Shown here: piece after piece, positions 48,875 to 64,000 of the stretch
Numbering within the stretch: position 1 is the stretch's first letter
Layout of the letters: each line of letters opens with the position of its first letter
Origin: Diphasiastrum complanatum
Taxonomy: Eukaryota; Streptophyta; Lycopodiopsida; Lycopodiales; Lycopodiaceae
Reading direction: 5' to 3'
DNA length: 64,000 nucleotides
NCBI GenBank assembly: GCA_029204225.1
Contig: CM055107.1
Location: 7,288,873-7,352,872, forward strand
Notes under the pieces: model-generated
What the model was told of the DNA's origin: nothing
Database searches by the model: none
Seen by the model: the letters and a program-made list of their open reading frames with translations, nothing else
Made by a program: the position numbers and the translations under genes

Positions 48875-49255
48875 GTAAAATCACTTGGAAGTATTCACTG
48901 AGAAACATGCGCCCGAGCTAGAAACCCTAAAAGTAGTATATAGGGAGGTTAGACTTGTTCACTCGAAACTCCCCAAAAGTTCAGACGGAAAGTGGCCACA
49001 AGTTTGTGTGCGACACGAATCCACTGGACCATTTGCAGTTCCATTCTGATGTCATTTGCCTGAAAACGTCCTTCATGTCGGAAGGAACGTCATTAGGGCA
49101 CAATGAATGGACTACTTTTTGGCATTCCCAATAAATGGTCCAGTATCGCCGAAGGAGTCCATTTTTCCTACCGTCTATTCCATATTGTGCTGCATGTGGA
49201 TTAAGACACATGGATTCAGTAACCGAAATTGCAAAACATTTTTTGTATTGAAAAG
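48875..49255 (-). repeat. Diverged monomers of the 361-bp satellite
   Basis: Read on the minus strand this matches the array at 62411-64000 in order: GGAATAGACGGTAGG near 49185, GATACTGGACCA near 49145, AAGTAGTCCATT near 49115, CAAATGGTCC near 49035, then TTTAGGGTTTCTAGCTCGG and GCATGTTTCTCAGTGAATAC near 48890-48935, which is the next unit. It covers slightly more than one period. Identity is roughly 65-75 percent by eye. Confidence 0.8.
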
Positions 49256-49645: not shown

Positions 49646-51729
49646 TTACAACTTCAACCTAGTACTCATCAACATCAGCTGCACATCATCAACCAATTTG
49701 TACAAATATTTCTTGATGTGTGCTCGAGAGATTTTTGGAATAGATATTGATCTTTCAACATCATATCCATGTTTCTTTACCATCTTTTCGGTCTTGGTTT
49801 TCCATGCATAAATCACAACATCAATATCTACACTTCCTACACTGTCATTGTTTGGAACCCAGTCTTTTGAAAGACAATCTTCGTATAATTTTTTGTTGTC
49901 GATTGAATTGTTTCCGCGTCTCTGAGTGGATTTAGATTTGTACCATAATGCTTTGAGTGAAGTGACCATACCATCAGCATCGATCCCTACTCCGACAACC
50001 TTTGCCATCCAAAATGAAGCTCCCGCTGCAACATCTTCATCTGGAGGTCGTATTGCAACAAATTGGTCCATTGCAACCTCTCTATTGCGTATGAATTCCG
50101 ATAATGGTGCATCTCCTTTCCATCCGCAATAGTGACGAGGTAAGAGTTCTACTGTATCCATTTCGACTTCCGTGTTCACATTAGAAGGCATGCATCCTGA
50201 AGGTTGAAAAGCAATCATAAAAGATTGTGGCCAGAAAGTTGTTTGGTTGTATGTTGATAGTGGCAAATTCTTTTGTTTTGTGAGGTACTCAAGAAGTTTT
50301 GTGGTTTCATCCATAGATGAGAAATTTTGATCTTTGTATTCTGGATACTTCTTGTGCCACCAACATAGAACAAAGACCAAAGATGAACCTATTTTTATTT
50401 TTCCTCCAACAATTCTCATCTTGAATACGTAAGATGGGAGGGAGATTGTCGCGTGAAAGTTGCACCTTTCGTATTCTCGCATAATGGATGTGACAACTTG
50501 ATTGTTGTCATGCAAATTCAAGGTGTCTATCCACACATCACAAAGCAATTTGAATTCGTGAACTATCCAATCTTGGAGGAGTCTTTTTGAAATGGAACAA
50601 TGTTGTTGTATTTTGATCCATGCCATCAATAAGGCACAACGATTGCTCTGAATGTGATCTTGATTTTTATTTCCAATATGTGTATAGCTTTCTCGAGTTG
50701 AAAATATGCAATAAGTGGCTCTCATTGCAATATGGCGATCTCTCACCTTAATATCAGTAGAAGTTTCGATTGCATTTTTTAGCTCATCACAAATCTTGCA
50801 TTTGGACATTCTTTGTTTTGTTGGAGCCTTGACATATCGAAACTCGTGTCTCCACAACCGATACAATGTATTTTTGGAGACTGTAGACATGCTAGTTTCT
50901 TGAACTTCTTTGTTGATGGAATTGAAGACATCACCTTTAGACATGCCAAGAGGGAGATGATGTTCACAATGAGCTACTCCATCTTTTGATTTATGTTGAA
51001 GATGCGGTTGGGGTAGAGTATGCTTTTCCAAAATCCTACCCATAATAGCAAGTTCCCGTCTTGAATGTGTGCACTGTTTTAATGTACCTATGTTCCCATG
51101 AAATTTATAGACAATATTGTTGCGTGCCTCTGAGATTATCTGCCAAAACATTCCATGGGAAACTCCCAATAGATCTTGAAATGCCTTCGAACATATGGTT
51201 TTACCTGAAACTATAGGTTTAAGTCTTAAAATGGGTTCTTCCCACATATTGCATGCAAGGTTCAAATTATCTTGTGTCTTCAGAAAACACCCAAACATTT
51301 GTAAAAGGTAATTATGTCTATCTGATCCTTGCTTTCTCCATACACTGAGTCTCAAGTCTTCACATTCTTTGTATGTGATTTTGCGTATACATAATTTCTT
51401 ACAACAAGGTTGCATCAAAGTCCCTTTTATATGTTCGGGTGATAAAACAGAATCTACCTTCTTCAGAGTGACGAATGCAAGCACACGTTTTCTTTTGTAG
51501 TTTCGAGAAGCTCCAAAAGATTCGAAACTTTTTGCATTGGACTTTCAAAACTTTTCTCGTGTGATTGACCAACTCTTGATACAGATTCTTTTAACATTTC
51601 ATTCCAAATACCTATCTCGTCGTCTTCATCGAAATCAAACATAGAAAAATCTAAATCATGTTGTCTAGAAGCATTAGAAGGCAATGTTGTAGAAGATGCA
51701 CTTGTTGTCTTCTTGAATAGTCTTGCCAT
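49646..51729 (-). pseudogene. DUF7869-like transposase-type gene, frame-broken
   Basis: A frame of 612 codons runs 51484-49646, preceded by an 88-codon frame (51729-51463) offset by one base. Landmarks: QPCCKKLCIRK and LRLSVWRKQGSDRHNYLLQM near the N-terminus; CKICDELKNAIETST; C-terminal GASFWMAKVVGVGIDADGMV and LKALWYKSKSTQRRG. The central conserved block is hidden in the alternative frame: LCLIDGMDQNTTTLFHFKK at 50583-50640 and NLPPILRIQ..ENCWRKNKNRF at 50367-50449, with NLHDNNQVVTSIMREYE in the main frame between them, so several small indels compensate. DGMDQ.T and RIQ..N....NKNRF are, as I recall, the signature of DUF7869 proteins, thought to be transposon-derived with Asp-rich RNase H-like cores. 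A GHTHEDID-like block expected next is missing. A fragment of a second copy lies at 23028-23270. Confidence 0.75.
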
Positions 51730-51859
51730 TTGAGAAAGTCTATGGTGACTGTCGGTGATAGAATTGCTTGAGATGGATTGTAGTGTCCATTTTCCACATT
51801 AATGTTTCTCATATGCATCAATAAATCTGAACTAAACCCATTTCGTCGAGATACATCAT

Positions 51860-52767
51860 TTAGTCTGAGTTGTATGCACGTCGTGTCAAATCATAACCAA
51901 TTACATCGTCCACGCCTGTCGAAACATTAGAGTTATAAAGAGCTGTTCTTGTAGCATTGCTATCATTCACATCATGAGCATTGATATCATCCACACCGGT
52001 GAGAACATCTGAACTATACCTAATCCGTTTGAAGTTTGCACTATTATTATGATTGACATGTTCCACACTAGTGAGAAAATCAAAATTATATGTTGGTTTT
52101 GTCGATGTTCTCCCATCGTGATTGAAGATAATCATATATTGCATACTTGATGATCTATTGTAATTGCGATGATAATAAGTGTAATACTCACTCATTGTCT
52201 CGTCGAACGATATGTGCCTAGTATTTGTAGCATGTAAAGAAAGTTTCGATACACACCATATCATCGACTTATTTGGTGAGTAAAATGGGACTCCGTCATC
52301 TGCCATGGCATTTTGAATGGTTCCTTCATTTGTTACTGATATTAACTTTATAGTGGCAAACAACTGATTTTTGTCAAAACTATAGTAACCTTTGAAGCTA
52401 GCCAAACAAACTATGTTTCTATCAAAATCCATACAATCAACAATATCATTGGTGTTATAAATATGACATGCCAAGACTACAAGATCGTCAATCTTCACCA
52501 CATCATTGTTATCCCACAACAATCTATTTGCCATTAAGTCCAACAAATTATCATAAATGTCTGCAAGATGAGTATTACTCGTCTGTGGGTATGGCCATGG
52601 ACAATCCATCTTGAGCACTTTTGAAATACTCACCATGCATTTATTTGTGGCAATTTCATGAAAGAAACACATCTGGATTGGTTCAGTACTCAAAATTTGA
52701 CCGAATGCAATGACTTCTTGTTGTATAGCAAGGCAACACGGACATTTTTTTCACGATCATTTTCCAT
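51860..52767 (-). pseudogene. Upstream ORF of the DUF7869-like locus, repeat-tailed
   Basis: The main frame (52693-51860, 277 codons) is not a family I recognise. Its first 200 residues are Cys- and Asn-containing and soluble-looking (CFFHEIATNKCMVSISKVLK). The end is a degenerate repeat of 25-27 residues: YNFDFLTSVEHVN, YSSDVLTGVDDIN, YNSNVSTGVDDVI, YNSD then stop; in another frame FSSDLLMHMRNIN continues it toward 51750. A likely true start is the ATG at 52767 (MENDREK), joined after a frame change at the seven-T run 52745-52751. It lies directly upstream of and co-directional with the DUF7869-like gene, about 130 bp apart, so the two may once have been one protein. Confidence 0.55.
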
Positions 52768-53041
52768 TGCAAGCCCTACACACACCCAAAGAAATTATGA
52801 TGTCAACATATGTTGGAACATACATACATATATAGTGTAATATAACACACAATGTAAATAGTTGGATAAATACACTCTCAATTTTGTAAATCTTAAAATC
52901 AAATTGTGTATTTTTAAGATTATTTGTAGTTATTTTCAGCGAAGTTTTGAGATTGTTTGTAATTATCTTGGAATATTTTTATGTATTTTTAATATCTTTA
53001 TAAAATATTCGTGGATCTTCCTTAGACCTTGACCCGTAACC
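52768..53041. other. 5' flank of the DUF7869-like locus
   Basis: AT-rich, no gene. From about 53012 the sequence becomes CCTTAGACCTTGACCCGTAA, which is the left edge of the CCCTTAG minisatellite that resumes at 59020. Confidence 0.5.
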
Positions 53042-53046
53042 CTTGG
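53042..53046. repeat. Target-site duplication CTTGG, left
   Basis: Perfect 5-bp match to 59020-59024 at the other end of the copia element. Confidence 0.92.
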
Positions 53047-53842
53047 TGTTGAAATCCAGCAGGTTCCCACATGTGGGAAAACCAATTCCTAGTGTGAATG
53101 ATCTTATTAAGCTTTGTGTTTAGCACATAAATTGATTCTAGATTGAATATCAAGATCTAGTTCAAGAATTTATGACTAAAACACAATCTAGCATGCTAGT
53201 AATCAAAGAATGGTTACTTTCACAATCATATGAGAAAAGTACAAAGAAATTAATGCATTAGCATAGCCTCCTCCTCGAGTTAGAGAGAGAGAGAGAGTGC
53301 AAAATTCAAGCATACAAGGCATTATATCCAAATTGACAAGAAATGGCTTCAATGCTTGGTTCATCATCAAAAATTGAGAGAGAACTCACATACATTTATG
53401 GTGGATGGAATAGCTTGTGTTAGAGCTAGCATCTATCTACTTTCTTCCACATCTAAAAGTGAAAACTAACAAACTAGTGACATTTGTCACTTTACATGCA
53501 TTCCCATCTACCTACTTTTACCAAGTGGCAATTTCTAGACTAGAATTGTCCAAATCACTATGCATGTGTCCTTTACACTTTGTGCATGCTTTGCATGTCA
53601 CTTAGGAACACTTACAATCTTTGCATGTGATATGACTCGAGTTTCTACAAGCTCATATTTGGCATTTCTATGCCTTAAATCTATATGCATGTTGTATTTG
53701 ACCAACTAAACTTCATATAACCCATGTAGCTCGAGTTTCCTCTAGGCCAAATTTGGCATTTCCAATATGAAACATTACATACATGTAGAAAAAACCTTAT
53801 CAAAACCAAAAGTCAAGATAGATGATTTTTCATTTTTCAACA
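53047..53842 (-). mobile_element. 3' LTR of the complete copia element
   Basis: 796 bp, from TGTTGAAATCC to TTTTTCAACA in plus sense; the TGTTGAAA/TTTCAACA ends are inverted repeats. It contains CCCACATGTGGG at the start and an (GA)6-like run at 53283-53296 that is 6 bp longer than in the other LTR. Confidence 0.95.
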
Positions 53843-53854
53843 CTCCTCCTAAAA
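53843..53854 (-). promoter_or_regulatory. Polypurine tract of the complete copia element
   Basis: The minus strand reads TTTTAGGAGGAG directly before the LTR start; AGGAGGAG is the purine core. Confidence 0.85.
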
Positions 53855-53931
53855 ATTAATCTATGTTGACTTGAACATGGATCTTGGAATTAATCCAAGA
53901 TTGGCTCTATGCTTGATGAAAGAATTTTTGC

Positions 53932-55100
53932 TCAAAGGTTTGGTGAGCAAATCTGCAATACATGATGATGTGTGATGTGCTCCAAATAGATTGCTCCTCC
54001 AATGAGCTTTTCTCTCACAAAGTGATGTGCAACTTCAATGTGTTTGCTCCCTGCATGAAATATTGGGTTGTTGGCAAGGGCTTGTGCTGAAATATTGTCA
54101 CACATAATCAATGGTATATCATCTTCCTTGATAGTCTTTAGCTCCAAAAGCAACCTCTTGATCCAAAGCACTTCTTTTGTTGTAGTAGTAAGCGCTTTAT
54201 ATTCAGCTTCACAAGATGAGAGAGATATGGTATCTTGTTTTTTAGAAAGCCAAGATATTAAATTCTCTCCAAGGTATATTACATATGCACTTGTAGATTT
54301 CCGATCCACTTTGTCACTAGCAAAATCCGAGTCAGAATATTCAATCATAGATGTAATGAGTTTTTCCAAGATCTTGCATCTTGAATTCTCCTCCAAGTGC
54401 AACTTTAGTTTCTTCAACTAAATTGATACAACTTCCACTTAGGATAATATCATCAACATAAATTAGAAGAATGACAATATCACTAGCATAAAACTTGATA
54501 TACATGGAAGGATCATAGTCACTAAGAATGAATCCTAGTGAGATAAGGAAAGAGTTAAGTCAAGAATACCACGATTTTGGTGCTTGCTTTAGTCCATAAA
54601 GACTTTTGAAAAGAAAGCAAACTTTGGACTCATCTTTGATGAACCCTTGAGGTTGTTCCATATAAATTTCTTCTTCTAGATATCCATTTAAAAAACCATT
54701 TGAGACTTCTAATTGGAGCACCTTCCATTTGAAAAAACAAGCAATGGATATGATAACTCTTATTGATACCATATTTGCAACAAGTGCAAAGGTCTCTTCA
54801 TAATCAAGTCCATGAATTTGGGCAAAGCCCTTTGCACAAAGTCTTGCCTTATATTTGTTGATTGTGGCATCTTGATTATATTTGACTCGAAAAACCCATT
54901 TGTAACCAATAGTATGCTTGTTGGATGGAAGGATCCACAAGCTTCCATGTCTTGTTGGTGATCAATGCATCATATTCCTGCTTCATGGCTAAAAACCATT
55001 CTTTTGAGTTGAGTGCCTCTTGGACATCCTTTGGCTCTTCATGTGAGATAAAATATGCATAACTAGTGGAACCAAGATCCATGTTTGCCTTTTTCACCAT
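53932..55100 (-). pseudogene. copia reverse transcriptase and RNase H, deleted
   Basis: RT opens EALNSKEWFLAMKQEYDALI, changes frame near 54950, then GYKWVFRVKYNQDATINKYK, LEVSNGFLNGYLEEEIYMEQ and FKSLYGLKQAPKSW. The first catalytic Asp (normally in QMDVKTAFLNG) is Glu here. YVDDIILSG near 54455 keeps the catalytic pair. After DLGK the sequence skips the rest of the polymerase and resumes at YSDSDFASDKVDRKSTSAYV of RNase H, a loss of about 150 residues near 54410-54420. RNase H continues SLSSCEAEYKALTTTTKEVL to SKHIEVAHHFVREKLIGG. Confidence 0.92.
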
Positions 55101-55269
55101 ATGAGAGCCTCTTAGGCTCGGATCTTTCTCTTAGTGATCTTCTAGGTGAGAAGACTCGAGGTGACTCCTCCTCAATTCTCGGCCCCAGCCCTCCATGATA
55201 ATCTTCAAGAGATATAATAGGAGAACCTTTTTGAGACTCTTTGATCTCGACCTCATCAAAGATGTATTT

Positions 55270-56500
55270 CTAGTTCTCATGGAATATAACATCTCTACTC
55301 TCAATTATGATTGAGGTAGAGGGAACATAAATTCTATATGCCTTCTTGTTGGATGAATACCCGACCACGATCCCTTTGCTTAAATTTGGATCATTTTTTC
55401 TCCTTGTTTCCAAGGGAATATGTACAAAGCAAGTACATCCAAAAACTCTAAGGTGATTAACCTTAGACTTCTCTCTTCCTGCAAGAGCATTGTGAGGTAG
55501 TCTATTGCACAAATAATTTGCACAATTTATTGCTTCTCCCCAAAATTCAATAGGCAAAGAAGCTTCAATTTGAATTGCTTTAACACATTCACATAACTTT
55601 TGGCAACCCCATTTTGAGATGGGCAATAAGCACAATAAAATTCTCTCTTGATCCCTTCAAGCTCACAATAAGCATGGAATTTATTGGAGATGTATTCACC
55701 TCTTCCACCACATCTCAAAGCTTAACTTTAAAAGACAATTGTTCCTCAACATAAGCCTTGAAAACTAGGAAGTAATCAAACACCATAGCTTTCGAAGAAA
55801 GAAGGTATAACCAAGTATATCTTGTGAAATCATCAATAAAGGTAAAAAAAACAAGTAGCACCACCAATACTTTTTGAGGAAGAAAAGTGAACATCCGAGT
55901 GTATTAGTTTCAATGGATGAGTAGTCTTGATTGAAGACCTTTGATATGGCTTTCTATGTGATTTTCCAATTGCACAAGCCTCACATGGCTTGATAACTTT
56001 GGAAAGTGATTTTGGTAGGCCAATAGCCTTATCATTCTTGATCATAGAAAGCATAGATTTGAAATTGGGATGTCCCAATCTCCTATGCCATAACTCCTCC
56101 TTAGAAATAAAAGCAATTTCACAAAAAATTGCATTTTCATAAGGATTTAACTTGAAGATGCCACCATATCTAGATCCATGAGCTAGGAACTCATCACCTT
56201 TCTTAATAATGCAAGTATTGACATTGAATTTCACATTGCAACCATAATCAAGCAATTTTCCAACACTTATCAAGTTCTTTGTAAGCTTAGGAGCAAAAAG
56301 AACATTGGAAAATGGTAGAACTTCAGAAGAAGCAAGTTTTAAAGGAATATTTCCAATTCCTTCAATAGAAAACTCATGGTCATTTGCTATATATATATAT
56401 AGATCTTTTAAGTCCTTCATAAGGTACAATTGAATCAAAAGACTTCTTAGAACAACACATATGTGATGAGGCACCACTATCGATGTACCATGCTCGATCC
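55270..56500 (-). pseudogene. copia protease and integrase
   Basis: The protease active site WYIDSGASSHMCC is at about 56480-56520. A TA-repeat at 56386-56400 then shifts the frame, and the region continues FSNVLFAPKLTKNLISVGKL and ELWHRRLGHPNFKSMLSMIK with CEACAIGKSHRKPYQRSS, the integrase zinc finger. The core shows HSDVHF (first Asp) and RCGGRGEYISNKF, where the second catalytic Asp of the usual RxDxGGEY is Gly. PSQNGVAKS follows with the Glu position altered. The C-terminus HLRVFGCTCFVHIPLETRRK and GIVVGYSSNKKAYRIYVPST is well preserved. Confidence 0.92.
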
Positions 56501-57438
56501 TTCTTGAAAGGTGTTGAAGAAAGGCTTGACACCATGAGAGATCCTTGTCCGTCACTTGCAATAGAGTCTTCTTCTTTCTCATTAGACAGATTTGCTTGTT
56601 TGAGGTGATTTTTTTTTTTGAAGCAATTAGAGGCATAGTGCCCCTTCTTGCCACAAAAGAAACACTTTACTTTCTTCTTCTTGGTCTTGGAAGTAGAAGG
56701 ATGAGTTGAGTCATCTTCTTCTCCATATTTATCTTTGTTCTTTGCTTTGTCTTTGGTGAAGGCTGGAGAATATTGATTCTTGCTCCTCCCTTTATGCTTG
56801 TCCTTGACAAAGAGAGCTTTGTCTTTTTCAATATGCTCGAGTTTGTTCATCCTTGAAAGTTTGTAACTTTGCCTTGCTTCTTCATAAGTGAGAATTCCTT
56901 GAAGAGTCTCCAAATTGGGCAACTCCTCCTTTATAGCAAACGATTGAACAAGATTATCATAGTCTTCTTTTGAGCCATTAAGAATGACTTGTACTAGCTC
57001 ATCTTGGTTGACTGTAAAACCAACACAAGCAAGCTCCCTATGAAGATCTTTTATTCTCAAAACATAATTTGATACACTCTCCTCACTTCTTTGAAAACTT
57101 TGAAAGATCTAATTTCTAAGTGTGAGAATTCTAGAAGTGTTCTTGGCTTCATAAATTGATTTAAGTGCATCCCAAGCTTTTTTAGTAGTGGTGCAAGATC
57201 CTATTTCTCTTAGAATTTCATTCGAGGCATTCATCTTAATAAAATGTAGAGCCATCCTAGCTCTCTTCTTAAATTTTGGTATTTCAAGTTGTTCTTGAGG
57301 CTCCTCCTCAATACCAAGTACTATGTCCATTACATCTAGGAGTACAAGAATAGACTCCATCCTAACCTTCCATATTGAATAGTTGGAGGTGCTTAGTCTT
57401 TCACTTGCTTCTAAGAGATATCCTCCCACAGATGCCAT
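56380..57438 (-). pseudogene. copia gag with in-frame TAG
   Basis: It begins MASVGGYLLEASERLSTSNY at 57438, a natural start, and runs KKAWDALKSIYEAKNTSRIL, TLRN, then TAG (57109-57111), resuming in the same frame IFQSFQRSEESVSNYVLRIK and DELVQVILNGSKEDYDNLVQ. The knuckle CFFCGKKGHYASNC (C-x2-C-x4-H-x4-C) lies at about 56645-56690, and the frame leads straight into the protease. The stop is at the same codon as TAA in the related gag at 36069-36645. Confidence 0.93.
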
Positions 57439-58216
57439 GAATGTGAAGACTTCTTGTAGATGGACAACAATATATTTGAGTTTGTTTCTAGCTAACTAAA
57501 TGTTGCTACACTTCTCACTATAGGAATTTTCAAAGGGTGAACTACCAAATCCTATGTGAAATCTTGCAACTGTATTTGAGATATGTCTCAAATATTCCAC
57601 CAATACAAAGCAAACTAGATCAATCTCTCAAAATGAATTGGAGTATAGACAAATTTTGGTTCTATCTTCTTTTGGCATGTGTGGAATGCTCAAAGACAAC
57701 ACTATTGACTCAAAAAAACTCAATTTGTATGAACCAATGTGTTAAATTACTCAAAACTTTGTCTAGATCTCGAGTTTGTTGAATTGATATACACAAAAAT
57801 TGGATTTTGAATCAGATAGGCAAAATTTTGAATCAAATCAAAAAGTGGGTCACTTGGATTTTGGATCACTCCCTATCCTTCTTTATGAGCTTATAACTCT
57901 TGATAGACACATTAGATTGATTTGAAACCAATTGCTATGGAAAATAGATCTTACTAGCTTTCCATCAAGCTATAACATCAATATCTTTGGACCTAACATG
58001 AAGGAGATAAAGAGGTTTGAAATGTTCTGATTTTCACACGTGCAAAAATCCAAAATTCCGTACAATATCAGTTTTGATCTGAAAACTTGATTCTAACCTC
58101 TTTGATCCAAACACTTTTCAGGAAAAGATAGAAAAAAGTGGTAAACAACTTCCTTGCTTGAATAGAACTCAAAATTTCTTACACAATAACTGATAATAGC
58201 ATGCAAAGATTAATTT

Positions 58217-58229
58217 GGCTTTGGTACCA
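58217..58229 (-). promoter_or_regulatory. Primer-binding site of the complete copia element
   Basis: The minus strand reads TGGTACCAAAGCC abutting the 5' LTR; it matches the initiator tRNA-Met type TGGTATCAGAGCC at 11 of 13. Confidence 0.88.
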
Positions 58230-59019
58230 TATTGAAATCCAGCAGGTTCACACATGTGGGAAAACCAATTCCTAGTGTGAATGATCTTATTAAGCTTTGT
58301 GTTTAGCACATAAATTGATTCTAGATTGAATATCAAGATCTAGTTCAAGAATTTATGACTAAGATACAATCTAGCATACTAGTACTCAAAGAATGGTTAC
58401 TTTCACAATCAAATGAGAAAAGTACAAAGAAATTAATGCATTAGCATAGCCTCCTCCTCGAGTTAAAGAGAGAGTGCAAAATTCAAGCATAAAAGACAAT
58501 AGATCCAAATTGACAAGAAATGGCTTCAATGCTTGGTTCATCATCAAAAATTGAGAGAGAACTCACATACATTTATGGTGGATGGAATAGCTTGTGTTAG
58601 AGCTAGCATCTATCTACTTTCTTCCACATCTAAAAGTGAAAACTAACAAACTAGTGACATTTGTCACTTTACATGCATTCCCATTTACCTACTTTTACCA
58701 AGTGGCAATTTCTAGACTAGAATTGTCCAAATCACTATGAATGTGTCCTTTACACTTTGTGCATGCTTTGCATGTCACTTAGGAACACTTACAATCTTTG
58801 CATGTGATATGACTCGAGTTTCTACAAGCTCATATTTAGCATTTCTATGCCTTAAATCTATATGCATGTTGTATTTGACCAACTAGACTTCATATAACCC
58901 ATGTAGCTCGAGTTTCCTCTAGGCCAAATTTGGCATTTTCAATATGAAACATTACATACATGTAGAAAAAACCTTATCAAAACCAAAAGTCAAGATAGAT
59001 GATCTTTCATTTTTCAACA
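58230..59019 (-). mobile_element. 5' LTR of the complete copia element
   Basis: 790 bp, near-identical to 53047-53842. Its inner end has TATTGAAA where the other has TGTTGAAA, so the terminal CA dinucleotide in element sense is mutated. Confidence 0.95.
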
Positions 59020-60510
59020 CTTGGCCCGTAGCCCTTGGTGCTTGGTGCTTAGTCCTTAGCCTTTCGCCATTGGTCCTTAGAGTTTGGCCCATGCCACTTG
59101 GTCCTCAACTACTGGACTATAGCCCTTGGCCCTTAGCCCTTAGTCCTTAGATCTTGGTCCTTAGCACTTACCCCTTAGCCAGTTGGCCCTTAGTCCTTAG
59201 CCCATGGCCCTTACCTCTTACCTCTTAGATCTAGGCCCTTAGCCCTTAGTCCTTAGACGTTGGCCCTCGACCCTCGGTCCTTAGCCAGTTGGCCCTTAGT
59301 CCTTAGACTTTGACCCTTAGCCGTTGGCCCTTAGTTCTTGACCACTGGCCCTTAGCCCTTAGCCCTTGACTCTTGGCCCTTGGTTCTTAGCTATTGGCCC
59401 TCGACCCTCAGTCCTTAGCCAGTTGGCCCTTAGTCCTTATACCTTGACCCTTAGCCATTGGTCCTAGCCCTTACTTCTTAGTTGCTGGCCCTTAGCCTTT
59501 GACTCTTGGCCCTTGGTTCTTAGCCGTTGGCCCTCGACCCTCGGTCCTTAGACAGTTGGAACTTAGTCCTTAGACCTTGACCCTTAGCCGTTGGCCCTTA
59601 GTTCTTAGCCGTTGGCCCTTGGTTCTTAGCCGCTGGCCCTTAGCCCTTGGTAGTCTGCAATTGGCCCTTAGCCCTTGACTCTTGGCCCTTGGTTCTTAGT
59701 CATTGGCCCTCGACCCTCGGTCCTCAACTAGTTGGCCCTTGGTCCTTAGACCTTGACCCTTAGCCGTTTGCCCTTAGTTCTTAGCCGCTGGCCTTAGCCC
59801 TTGGTAGTCAACAATTGGCCCTTAGCTCTTGACTCTTGGCCCTTTGTTCTTAGCCATTGGCCCTCGACCCTCGATCCTTAGCTAGTTGGCCCTTGGTCCT
59901 TAGACCTTGACGCTTAGATGTTGGTCCTTAATTCTTAGCTGCTAGCCCTTAGCCCTTGGTAGTCGGCAATTGGCCCTCAGCCCTTGACTCTTGGCCCTTG
60001 GTTCTTAGTTGTTGGCCCTCGACCCTCGGTCCTAAGGCAGTTGGCCCTTAGTCCTTAGACCTTGATCCTTAGCCATTAGCCGTTGGCCCTTGGTTCTTAG
60101 TCGTTGGCCCTTAGCCCTTGGTTCTTAGTTGTTGGCCCTCAACCCTCGGTCCATAGCTAGTTGGCCCTTAGTCCTTAGACTTTGACCCTTAGCCGTTGGC
60201 CCTTAGTTCTTAGCCGCTAGCCCTTAATCCTTGGCAGTCGGCAATTGGCCCTTTGCCCTTGACTCTTGGCCCTTGGTTCTTAGTCGTTGGCCCTCGACCC
60301 TCGGTCCTTATCCAGTTGGCCCTTAGTCCTTAGACCTTGACTCTTAGCCATTGTCCCTTAGTTCTTAGCCGTTGGCCCTTAGTTCTTAGCCGCTGGCCCT
60401 TAGCCCTTGGTAGTCGACAATTGGCCCTTAGCCCTTGACTCTTGGTCCTTGGACCAATGCCTTATCCGTAGTAGGTGATTTGTCCTTAGCCCAAGGCCCT
60501 TAGTCATTGA
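59020..60510 (+). repeat. CCCTTAG/CCCTTGG minisatellite with higher-order units
   Basis: Built from 11-13-bp words such as CCCTTAGTCCTTAG, GTTGGCCCTTAG and CTTGACCCTTAG. Higher-order blocks, marked by a CAGTTGGCCCTTRGTCCTTAGAC segment, start near 59177, 59284, 59417, 59551, 59727, 59881, 60037, 60157 and 60311, spaced about 107-176 bp. A 35-bp piece of the same array lies left of the copia insertion (53012-53046). No coding meaning. Confidence 0.95.
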
Positions 60511-61380
60511 CCTTATAGGCTATTTTTTCTTGTAACTTATGTTATTGTTTTTTATTATTGTTTTAAGGTTTTTATTTCTCCTAACTGTATGGATTTTATT
60601 TTTTATTATTTTTTTAGATTTTAAATGTTTTCTATGTAATTTTTTAGTATATTTTGTACTTTTTTATTCTCATTAAGTTTTTATAATTGTATTTATTAAT
60701 ATTTTTATTTGGTCATTTTATTTTTTTAATTATATTATTCATTTATTTTGTGATTTTATTTTATTTTTATTCAATTTTTATATATCTAACTTATTGTGTA
60801 GTTTTGTATTTTATTTATTGTATTTTGTGAATTTATTATTTTATTTTAATATTTTAATAAATAATCTATTTTTTAAATTTCTATGATTTATTAATTGCTA
60901 CATTCTATTTTTTTATATTTCTCTCGTTTTTTTATGATTATATTGATTCTATTCTATTTTTTTGTTTTCTTTAATTTTATTTATATTTTATATTCTATTC
61001 TATTTTTAAATTTTTAATTTATTGATGTTATTATTATGTGATGCTATCTATTTATTCTTTTGATTTCTTCCAATCTTGATTTTCAATTTAGTTTATTTTT
61101 TTATTTCTTTGTTACAGTTTTTATTTTATTTTATTTTTATTCAATTTATTGTAATTTTTGGTGTTTTGTTGATTTTATTTTCTTATTTGACTCCATTTAT
61201 TATTGTATTTATTTATCTAGTTTGTTTTTTTATTTTTGTGTTTTTTTTATTTATGATTTTTATTTTAATTTCATAAACATTTAGTGTTATTCATATTTAA
61301 ATCTACTAATTTTCACTTCTATGTTTTCAAAAGTTAGTTATGTTTTTATGTTTTGTTTGCAATTTTTAATTATATGTCTT
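60511..61380 (+). repeat. T-rich low-complexity region
   Basis: About 870 bp dominated by TTTTATTTTTATT words. Apparent Phe/Ile/Tyr-rich frames here are composition artefacts. Confidence 0.9.
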
Positions 61381-61819
61381 ACTAAAAACATGCAAAGGGA
61401 GAAAAACACCAAGGAGAGGAGAGCACAAGGAAAGGACAACAATTATCCCATAAGTATTTCTAGAAGCATGATAGAACTCATGAGTATATATACATTGTGA
61501 AATTCGTCTTTTTCCAAGAATTGTGACTAAAGAGTCACAGTTACAATAAGATGGCTTTCCAAAAATGCCAAAAACAATAAGATTTGTTTTTTTATGAATT
61601 CAATACGGTGTTGACACATGGCAAATCATATATCCCATAAGCAAAATGAACATTTGTCTACCAAGATAGATAAACCTCATCCTCATCTCAATAGTTCACT
61701 TTGTTATTTAATTTTAAAACTTCAAGCTTCAAGCTTTTTCTTTTATGTTCTCATTTTTACTTCACGTTCAAAACATAAAATATGGGGCCGTATATCTGCG
61801 CAAATTTTCATTATAATTT

Positions 61820-61821
<2 letters not shown>
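61381..61821. other. No gene seen
   Basis: Ordinary AT-rich spacer between the T-rich region and the TA tract. Confidence 0.5.

Positions 61822-61860
<39 letters not shown>
61822..61860 (+). repeat. (TA)n microsatellite
   Basis: About 20 TA units followed by a short interrupted CACATATATATATA extension. Confidence 0.97.
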
Positions 61861-61865
<5 letters not shown>

Positions 61866-62101
61866 TATATATATAAGCATCAATGTGCATAGCCTCTCGC
61901 CGCTACGGGAGGTTCTGCGTGATTTTTCTAGTAAAGAGTGTCCGTCGTTGATGGGGCAATGACGGACGTGCGTCGATGGCGGACGTGCGCACGTGCGTGC
62001 GTGTGTGCATGCGTGTGCGTGCGTGCCCTAAGGCGTTGTGTATTTGTGTGTCCAAGTGTGTGTATGTGCATGTGTTGTGTGCATGCAATGTGTGTTTATG
62101 G

Positions 62102-62104
<3 letters not shown>

Positions 62105-62134
<30 letters not shown>
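62105..62134 (+). repeat. (GT)n microsatellite, 15 units
   Basis: Pure GT for about 30 bp in a wider GTGTGC/GTGCGT-rich zone from 61980 to 62350. Confidence 0.97.
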
Positions 62135-62137
<3 letters not shown>

Positions 62138-62181
62138 GTTGTGGATTAGGATTAGGTTGTAGCTTTAGCTTTAGGCTTAGG

Positions 62182-62182
<1 letters not shown>

Positions 62183-62250
<68 letters not shown>
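62183..62250 (+). repeat. (TG)n microsatellite, 34 units
   Basis: Pure TG for 68 bp; Cys-Val and Thr-His frames across it are artefacts. A short GTAGCTTTAGCTTTAGGCTTAGG segment sits just before it. Confidence 0.98.
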
Positions 62251-62254
<4 letters not shown>

Positions 62255-62410
62255 TGTGTGTGTGGGTCTGCGTGTGTTTGTGGGTGTGCACATTGTGTTG
62301 TGTGTATGTCTGTTTGTGTGTGTGCTATGTTCGTGTGCATGTGCGTGTGCGGCCAGCGATCTGGGTGACGGTTGGAAGGCGGTTGATGGTTTAGGAGGAA
62401 GTTATAAACA

Positions 62411-64000
62411 CCTCTTGTCCGAAGTTCTGACTGGTTTTTACTGAATCCGACTAATTTTTGGCTCGATGGGCCTAGAATCTCAAGATTGCGTTTAGGGTTT
62501 CTAGTTCGGACGCACATTTCACTGTGAGTAGTGAACCGTTTGGAGCCCGATTTAGTCATGTGCATTCGTCTCGACGTGCAGCATAGGATGGAACAAATGG
62601 TCTAAACAACAGACTTCGTTCGGCGACACTGGACCAATTCTTGAGAATGTTGGAAAGTAGTCCATTTAGTGGCATTCCCCCCGACAGAAAGGGTGTTTTT
62701 GGACAAACGATGTCGGAATTGAGCTAAAAATGGTCATGTGGGTTCGTGTCAAGCCCACGCACCTGTGGACACACACCTCTCATCTGAAGTTCTGACCATT
62801 TTTTACTGAATCCGACCAATTCCTGGCTCGATGGGCCTAGATTGCCAAGACCAGTTTAGGGATTCTGGTTCGAATGCATGTTTTATTGTGAGTACTGAAT
62901 CGTTTGGAGCCTGGTTTAGTCCCGTGGGTTCGTCTTGACATGCAGGACAAGACGAAATAGACCGTCTAAAAAGCGGACTTCATTCGATGACACTGGACCA
63001 ATTCTCGGGGATACTGAAAATAGTCCATTTAGTGGCATTCTCCCGGCAGAAAGGGTGTTTTTAGACAAACGGTGTTAGAATTGAGCTACAAATGTTCCTA
63101 TGGGTTTGTGTTGAGCCCACAAACCTGTGGACACTCCGTTCCGAGGTTCTGGCTGTTTTTGACTGAATTCGACCAATTTTTGGCTCGATGGGCCTAAAGT
63201 CCTAGAACTACGTTTAGGGTTTCTGATTCAAGGACGCACGTTTCGCTATGAAAATTGAACTATTTGGAGTCTAGTTTAGTGTTGTAGGTCCGTATCGACG
63301 TGTAGCATAGGACGGAACAGACGGTCTGAAAAATGAACTTCGTTCGGTGACACTGAACCGGTTCTCGAGGATGCTAAAAGGTAGTCCATTTAGTGGGATT
63401 CCCCCTGGCAGAAAGAGCATTTTTGGACAAACGACGTCGAAAGTGAGCTACAAATGGTCCTGTGGGTTCGTGTCGAGCCCATGAACCTGTGGACTTCTGT
63501 TCGAGGTTCTGACTGTTTTCTATTGAATCCGACCGATTCCTGGTTTGATGGGGGCCTAGAATCCTAGAACTGCATTTAGGGTTTCTGGTTTGAACGCATG
63601 TTTTGTTGTTGTGAGTACTGAACCATTTGGAACCCGGTTTAGTCTTGTCGGCTCGTCTTGGCGTGCAGCATAGGACGGAATAGACGGCCTAGAAAATGAA
63701 CTTTGTTTAGCGACACTGGACCAGTTCTCGGGGATGCTAGAAAGTAGTCCATTTAGTGCAATTCTCCCCAACAAAAAGATTGTTTTCAGACAAACGGCAT
63801 CGAAATTGAGCCACATATGGTCCTGGTTTGTGTTTAGCCCACAAACCTATGGACACTTCCTGTCCGAAGTTCTGACCATTTTTTACTGAATCCGATCAAT
63901 TTCTGGCTCGATGGGCCTAGATTCCCAAGATTGCGTTTAGGATTTCTAGTTCGGATGCATGTTTCGCTATGAATACTGAACCGTTTGGAGCTTGGTTTAG
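62411..64000 (+). repeat. ~361-bp satellite array, 4.4 units in window
   Basis: Units start GARGTTCTGRCTGTTTTTACTG at 62421, 62786, 63143, 63503 and 63866, spacing 365, 357, 360 and 363 bp. Each holds CTCGATGGGCCTAGA, TTTAGGGTTTCTRGTTC, CTGAACCGTTTGGAG, GACACTGGACCA and AGTAGTCCATTTAGTG in the same order. Neighbouring units are about 80 percent identical. The array continues past the right edge. No conserved frame runs through it. Confidence 0.95.

Follow-up and report, generated by a model that had tools for sequence, protein, structure and literature searches.

An open reading frame with a hidden DUF7869 core in Diphasiastrum complanatum: a dead copy of a probable two-gene DNA transposon

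We analyzed a stretch of 64,000 nucleotides from the genome of the lycopod Diphasiastrum complanatum (GenBank assembly GCA_029204225.1, contig CM055107.1; hereafter the window), in which positions 49646 to 52767 carry the remains of a gene related to the Pfam family DUF7869 (PF25273). These remains very probably represent a dead, internally deleted and 3'-truncated copy of a large two-gene DNA transposon with inverted repeats and a 4-bp target duplication; the DUF7869 core of this element most likely represents a transposase of the DDE type. The frames and deletions are seen in the window copy itself; the inverted repeats, duplications and two-gene layout are seen on its relatives. The window feature is an ordinary dead copy, and its interest lies in the element family that the other copies reveal.

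An open frame with its core out of frame

A 632-codon open frame is present on the minus strand at 49646-51544. An earlier note, made from the sequence alone, had held that this frame looks falsely intact while the conserved DUF7869 core is hidden in a second frame. The open frame is real, yet the core does lie out of frame. Of eight pieces scanned against Pfam, DUF7869 was seen in one alone, at a position that is off-frame (50307-50507, minus strand; 46.5 bits against a cut-off of 26; profile positions 48-101 of 192), and the 632-residue frame itself gave no DUF7869 match. The features concerned are the following:

49646..52767, minus strand: gene A (the DUF7869 gene), a pseudogene, delimited by three-frame translation and 15 aligned copies
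49646..51544, minus strand: mosaic open frame of 632 codons, in which the true frame alternates with two stretches read off-frame, at about 50719-50566 and about 50475-50353
50307..50507, minus strand: off-frame piece with the DUF7869 match (E 4.1e-12)
50352..50353, minus strand: point at which 485 bases are deleted, and with them the remainder of DUF7869 and its GHTHEDIDQ region

Translations of the window were compared, segment by segment, with the protein derived from the majority of 15 other copies of the element. With frames counted from 52800, the results are:

51530-50720: frame 2, identical at 247 of 270 residues (next-best frame: 29 of 269)
50718-50566: frame 1, 29 of 50 identical, with a 3-base deletion inside (9 of 51)
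50564-50476, containing NLHDNNQ: frame 2, 26 of 29 identical (7 of 29)
50474-50353, containing LPPILRIQ..ENCWRKNKNRF: frame 1, 36 of 40 identical (8 of 40)
50351-49650: frame 2, 198 of 233 identical (24 of 234)

Frames therefore follow each other through the core of the window copy in the order 2, 1, 2, 1, 2. These identities, together with the off-frame Pfam match, mean that the off-frame core is more than a chance resemblance. We looked among the other copies for a main frame kept across 50360-50640 and found the opposite, so that the hidden-frame reading stands.

Deletions in the window copy

Twenty copies were fetched from the host genome (1.74 Gb, in which the window is C16:7288873-7352872; fetched loci and host sequences are given below by L and C numbers, respectively), and 15 of these were aligned with the window. 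Of the other five, L015 and L017 nearly duplicate L014 and L018, L016 is divergent, and L020 and L024 are incomplete, and they were left out for these reasons. In the majority sequence of the 15 copies, one frame runs through the core, with the DGMDQ, QADNCWRENKNR and GHTHEDIDQ motifs intact. Set against this majority, the window has 18 indels. Fourteen of them shift the frame, several of which fall in a repeat region that aligns poorly. The core indels are deletions of 4 (50719), 3 (50632), 38 (50565), 1 (50475) and 485 bases (50352). Because 4, 38, 1 and 485 bases sum to 528, a multiple of three, the main frame returns. The earlier note had expected at least four small shifts: four frameshifting deletions are indeed found, but two of them, of 38 and 485 bases, are not small. 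Its further idea, that the layout of alternating frames is a feature of the element, fails, since the majority sequence reads core and flanks in one frame and the breaks are copy-specific.

The largest deletion takes out the stretch where other copies have their GHTHEDIDQ motif. At its junction, 18 of the 20 fetched copies match both sides and carry about 366-487 nt in between, L020 and L024 having no both-side match; none of the 15 aligned copies lacks the stretch wholly, and ten lack 1 to 119 of its bases. Three deletions, of 7 (51531), 485 and 1 base (49686), are fully shared by none of the copies that cover them (14, 15 and 10, respectively). For those of 4, 3, 38 and 1 base (50475), a single copy among the 15 shares each in full (L012, L012, L012 and L023, respectively); in L012 a larger deletion spans the place. 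Each aligned copy has its own set of frameshifting indels, ranging from 3 to 13.

That the 632-codon frame is open is luck, a chance event of a few per cent. Placed on the majority sequence at its real position, the window's deletion pattern creates no stop; slid along the majority coding sequence, the same pattern leaves the frame open at 44 of 1751 positions. In a cruder control, two random off-frame stretches, as long as those of the window copy, were both open in 20 of 5000 cases. Copy L026 has a comparable mosaic frame of 446 codons. With a chance of a few per cent and a family this large, a false-intact frame is expected now and then. Automatic annotation could take the 632-codon frame for an intact gene despite its out-of-frame, partly deleted core, and the record of deletions given above shows the origin of such false-intact genes.

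Parts and decay of gene A

From its ATG at 52767, gene A comprises an N-terminal part, a series of 25-residue repeats, a middle region, the DUF7869 core and a C-terminal part; the end of its frame is altered by the 1-base deletion at 49686. Two further features belong here:

51795..52095, minus strand: region of (Y/F)xSDxLTxVDDIN repeats, interrupted around 51811-51862 by indels and a stop
52768..53046, minus strand: 5' side of gene A, with an acceptor-like TGTGTGTAG directly before GGCTTGCAATGG, and the end of a GGCTAAGG-type array

The repeat region is too variable to align, and the majority sequence has two stops there. The earlier note had suggested that the upstream reading frame with these repeats is the N-terminal part of the same protein, and this is borne out by single frames in two other copies that join the parts. 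L009 has one open frame of 533 residues that enters from flanking DNA, runs through the N-terminal part (match at residues 87-146) and ends in the middle region; in L020, one frame of 457 residues leads from (Y/F)xSDxLTxVDDIN-type repeats to the region before the core. The 5' side is common to L010, L013, L019, L021, L022 and L027, and its acceptor-like sequence may mark a splice site upstream of gene A.

In the true frame, the window copy has one in-place stop. Its substitutions relative to the majority fall on codon positions 1, 2 and 3 in the proportions 45/30/37 (p=0.22), with 87 transitions among 112. Being even over codon positions, they indicate a dead copy with no sign of protein selection since it arose. 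Codon-position bias is likewise not significant in 14 of the 15 other copies. In the remaining one, L018, third-position changes are too few (35/40/15, p=0.003 before correction for 16 tests), the opposite of protein selection.

Alternative explanations of the frame changes

Small indel errors occur in long-read assemblies, and two of the four core shifts are of just 1 and 4 bases, so the frame changes might be errors of assembly or sequencing in a gene that is intact in the plant. We consider this very improbable: the other two shifts measure 38 and 485 bases, the 112 substitutions are even over codon positions, and all 15 aligned copies carry frameshifting indels, 3 to 13 each. Introns or programmed frameshifting might instead join the frames, each block being conserved and the blocks lying close together. 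This explanation is, if anything, even harder to accept, since the majority of the other copies reads the core in one frame and since, at the switches, the window has bases deleted and none added, leaving no room for introns between the pieces. Given the alignment of copies, we reject sequencing error as well as introns and programmed frameshifting.

There is also the case for domestication, that is, a gene that kept its open frame after losing its catalytic core. The frame is open across all 632 codons and the parts flanking the core are well conserved. However, the substitutions show no codon-position bias (45/30/37, p=0.22), the same deletion pattern is also open on the majority sequence, L026 has a similar mosaic frame of 446 codons, and a Copia retrotransposon has inserted between the gene and its promoter-like region. 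We therefore hold domestication to be very unlikely, and retain a dead transposon copy as the explanation of the window feature.

Abundance and ends of the element

The genome-wide search for copies that the earlier note had proposed gave both the majority sequence and the ends of the element. Searched against the host genome, the 632-residue protein has at least 92 matches (from the best 70 of 2533 first-look candidates), and the DUF7869 profile yields 2953 candidates, of which the best 150 were scored and all 150 passed the cut-off; no DUF7869 match was found in 14 control genomes. The DUF7869 copies in the genome fall in several divergent groups. L017 and L018, both on C15, are 99.7% alike across 3.2 kb, and another 3.7 kb, extending beyond the element, is 99.0% alike; equal scores recur in several other pairs of places. 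This points to many duplicated segments in the assembly or in the genome. Some of the places counted here are duplicated assembly segments, and the cases are not all independent.

In the window, the copy stops short of its own end:

49200, minus strand: broken 3' end, joined to a diverged unit of a 363-bp satellite

Among 14 copies compared at this point, 11 reach the base that matches 49200, and all 11 go on with related sequence that is absent from the window, made up of a (GA)n run, a conserved tail and the right terminal inverted repeat. Position 49200 is therefore ruled out as the true end of the element. The left end of L060, AACATTGTATCAATTAATTTTGGACTTTGGCAAAA, is the reverse complement of the right ends save 1 to 3 bases in the copies compared, and the terminal inverted repeats are about 35 bp long (AACAYWRTATCAATTAATTTTGGACTTTGGCAAAA, with one base changed in some copies). 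A 28-base core of this repeat, with two mismatches at most, occurs at 98 forward and 119 reverse places in the genome (217 in all), and a reversed control pattern occurs at none.

Among the 100 of these 217 places that were listed, inverted pairs within 25 kb delimit three elements, of 8.5 kb (C9), 13.2 kb (C13) and 17.9 kb (C3111). In these three elements with both ends, the flanking target duplications are AGAT/AGAT (C13), AATC/AATC (C3111) and ATTA/ATTG (C9). No target duplications were found within the 9.9-kb loci, the left ends lying outside these loci. Nor were the left ends of the C16 and C774 copies found at the expected distance, where variable-length arrays or other sequence lie.

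A layout of two divergent genes

The element carries a second gene, gene 2, first recognised as a sequence common to L039:1-1458, L025:50-1540 and L020:8564-9868; the best 150 of 576 candidates for it in the genome were scored. Pieces of gene 2 gave one sub-threshold match in Pfam and nothing over the cut-off, and no match in the PDB for one of four pieces. Its C-terminal end is acidic in L059 and L060.

We counted the layout twice, using the matches that were scored and listed: first with 203 merged gene A matches, 150 gene 2 matches and the 100 listed inverted-repeat places, then with the first 68 of 92 gene A rows (the rest being further pieces, most adjoining a listed one) and 40 places each of the tail and of the region 5' of gene A. 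Gene 2 lies upstream of gene A on the opposite strand in 11 of the 13 pairs listed within 15 kb; two of these 11 divergent pairs, both on C8, are probably duplicates of each other. All 15 listed inverted repeats 3' of gene A point inward, as do all 20 that lie 3' of gene 2. In the second count, gene A and the tail agree in orientation in 12 of 13 pairs, and the 5' region agrees with gene A in five of seven, the window's own pair included. Among the matches listed, gene 2 lies inside all three delimited elements and gene A inside two.

Tandem arrays accompany both genes. A hairpin minisatellite, AGAACCTCCCGCCGCGGCGGGAGGTTCT, is found between them (L039:1480-2160, L040-L051 and around 61900 in the window), CTGCGGTCC arrays lie to the left of gene 2, and further arrays stand beside the genes. 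The hairpin and CTGCGGTCC arrays are possible protein-binding repeats. A search of the literature found no description of the structure of the whole element.

A probable transposase

The core of gene A is a member of PF25273, a family to which Pfam assigns no function and which, in the host genome, is part of a mobile element that also has inverted repeats and another gene. Judging from conserved residues, DUF7869 is most likely a catalytic transposase of the DDE type. Three acidic positions, namely D of DGMDQ, D of DN..R(E/K)NKN, and E or D of GHTH(E/D)xIDQ, are common to three copy groups that otherwise differ widely (a comparison of eight sequences, two of which do not reach the first motif). 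In L018, whose DUF7869 match has 163.9 bits and covers profile positions 4-192 of 192, the second and third acidic positions are 39 residues apart, a spacing common for DDE transposases. The structure predicted for the C-terminal piece of the window copy is poor, with a predicted local distance difference test (pLDDT) score of 36.9.

In the mechanism that we propose, the two genes would be transcribed outward from a central tandem-array region, one of them being gene A, with its DUF7869 core and N-terminal accessory part, and the other gene 2. The inverted repeats would be the cutting sites of the gene A product, and insertion would proceed through 4-bp staggered joints. The N-terminal part of the product may bind the hairpin repeats, and an intact element would move by cut and paste. 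The window copy may have been mobilised by other copies before it decayed. In its present state, with the third motif deleted, the core frameshifted and the right end gone, it is incapable of transposase function in any frame.

A number of observations weigh against this picture. The duplication at C9 matches at only three of its four bases. Two of the 13 gene A/gene 2 pairs (C10, C4) are not divergent, and two of the seven pairs of gene A and 5' region (C4, C8) have the other orientation; two pairs of 5' region and tail on C23, probably duplicates, face the wrong way. At C8:32.46 Mb, the one exception to the agreement of gene A and tail, gene A is reversed between the 5' region and the tail. 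In our view, these layout exceptions probably stem from rearranged copies or from neighbouring ones. Among the matches listed, none to gene A lies in the C3111 element, and no uninterrupted gene A is present among the fetched copies. The window copy is without an inverted repeat, and the window holds no gene 2: the nearest among the matches listed (best 150 of 576) is some 23 kb past its edge, and its strand is not the expected one. As for the acidic positions, the D of DGMDQ is replaced by A in L058, and the third position is G in L056; both copies may be dead. Finally, DUF7869 has no match to Pfam transposases, and gene A has none in the PDB.

The C8 case itself, C8:32455789-32459904, is a reversed gene A fragment that reflects either an inversion inside the element or a nested copy.

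Now that DUF7869 is linked with the ends of an element, its target duplications and a second gene, it becomes a testable transposase, and repeat annotators gain a structure to look for in other genomes.

Relation to known transposons and other systems

With the inverted repeats and target duplications found on the relatives, the element has the hallmarks of a class II DNA transposon. EnSpm/CACTA elements are large plant elements that encode two proteins and have repeats near their ends; they end in CACTA and generate a 3-bp duplication. Gene A recalls them through a weak resemblance of its N-terminal part to Transposase_23 (TNP1), seen in two of five copies (14.1 and 12.4 bits, below the cut-off of 21) and absent from the window copy. 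Transposase_21 gave no match at E values up to 10 in the six pieces scanned. The ends here are AACA instead of CACTA and the duplication is 4 bp instead of 3, which, taking the CACTA values as generally known, rules out membership in CACTA.

Sola and Academ elements produce duplications of about 4 bp. Further comparisons are provided by PMC9587614: piggyBac and the first-described Kolobok elements duplicate TTAA; Kolobok ends read 5'-RR...YY-3', with a KolobokP lineage that has 3-5 bp duplications; and a C/DxxH motif is given for Kolobok, hAT, P, MuDR and Dada. The element resembles piggyBac in its inverted repeats and 4-bp duplications; piggyBac is ruled out, however, by duplications that are AGAT, AATC and ATTA/ATTG and not the TTAA described there. 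It shares these features with Kolobok too, and its AA...TT ends fit the reported 5'-RR...YY-3' pattern; TTAA is absent here, and the 4-bp duplication lies within the KolobokP range. In L018, no C/DxxH was found between the acidic residues assumed to be the second and third, a result that depends on this assignment. Since KolobokP duplications and RR...YY ends fit, only the absent C/DxxH speaks against Kolobok.

The element may then be a plant lineage of an already named superfamily, with Sola, Academ and a Kolobok lineage as candidates, the family being unlabelled and not new. We find this quite possible, if somewhat short of an even chance. According to PMC9587614, Repbase lists 20 superfamilies with a DDD/E transposase, and the RR...YY ends and 3-5 bp duplications given there fit the AA...TT ends and 4-bp duplications of the element; against this, the C/DxxH that it gives for Kolobok, hAT, P, MuDR and Dada is absent in L018. 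The duplications of about 4 bp generally ascribed to Sola and Academ would also fit. In bivalves, Sola1 elements average 5445 bp and Academ elements 5565 bp (PMC10294476), so that length, several kb, is a further likeness; the three elements here span 8.5-17.9 kb between their inverted repeats.

More tentatively, DUF7869 could be the transposase of an unrecognised eukaryotic superfamily, characterized by two divergent genes, 35-bp inverted repeats that begin with AACA, 4-bp duplications and an unusual load of tandem arrays. The array load comprises hairpin CCTCCCGCCGCGGCGGGAGG units, CTGCGGTCC units, GGCTAAGG units and GA runs, and the family is abundant, with hundreds of copies or more in the host genome (217 inverted-repeat places; 2953 DUF7869 candidates). 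Our literature search found no paper that names DUF7869 and none with GHTHEDIDQ.

A viral origin was considered and discarded: in IMG/VR, the protein search gave five pattern matches, none of them confirmed, and the GHTHEDID pattern gave none; in phages, 11 records were matched at chance level (best E 6). PADLOC gave no matches.

Surroundings of the window copy

Upstream of gene A, the remaining parts of the transposon are interrupted by a Ty1/Copia retrotransposon with long terminal repeats (LTRs):

53047..59019, minus strand: Ty1/Copia LTR retrotransposon within the element's array, with LTRs at 53047-53844 and about 58230-59019
59020..60520, minus strand: GGCTAAGGGCCAAGG-type tandem array of the same transposon, continuing beyond the Copia element and like the arrays 5' of gene A elsewhere (for example, L010, L013 and L022)
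60521..61763, minus strand: A-rich and promoter-like stretch of the transposon, with TATATATACTCATGAG near 61490; the shared part may extend to about 61932

The Copia element is recognised by an RVT_2 match (E 1.1e-38, within 54560-54961), by an LTR pair with 97.1% identity over 796 aligned bases and by a 5-bp duplication, CTTGG, at 53042-53046 and 59020-59024. Its insertion splits the transposon's GGCTAAGG-type array. Array, A-rich stretch and promoter-like stretch occur in the same order in other copies, and many matches begin at window position 61763 (best 40 of 131 candidates). The TATATATACTCATGAG stretch may act as a promoter.

The 363-bp satellite fills 62418-64000; its diverged unit at 48890-49197, just past the transposon's broken end, has the opposite orientation. 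Window positions 60001-63399 have an inverted copy, 99.6% identical, at about C16:8.20 Mb (L030), where no near-identical DUF7869 part is found among the matches listed. This pair suggests a segmental or assembly duplication with a break between its members.

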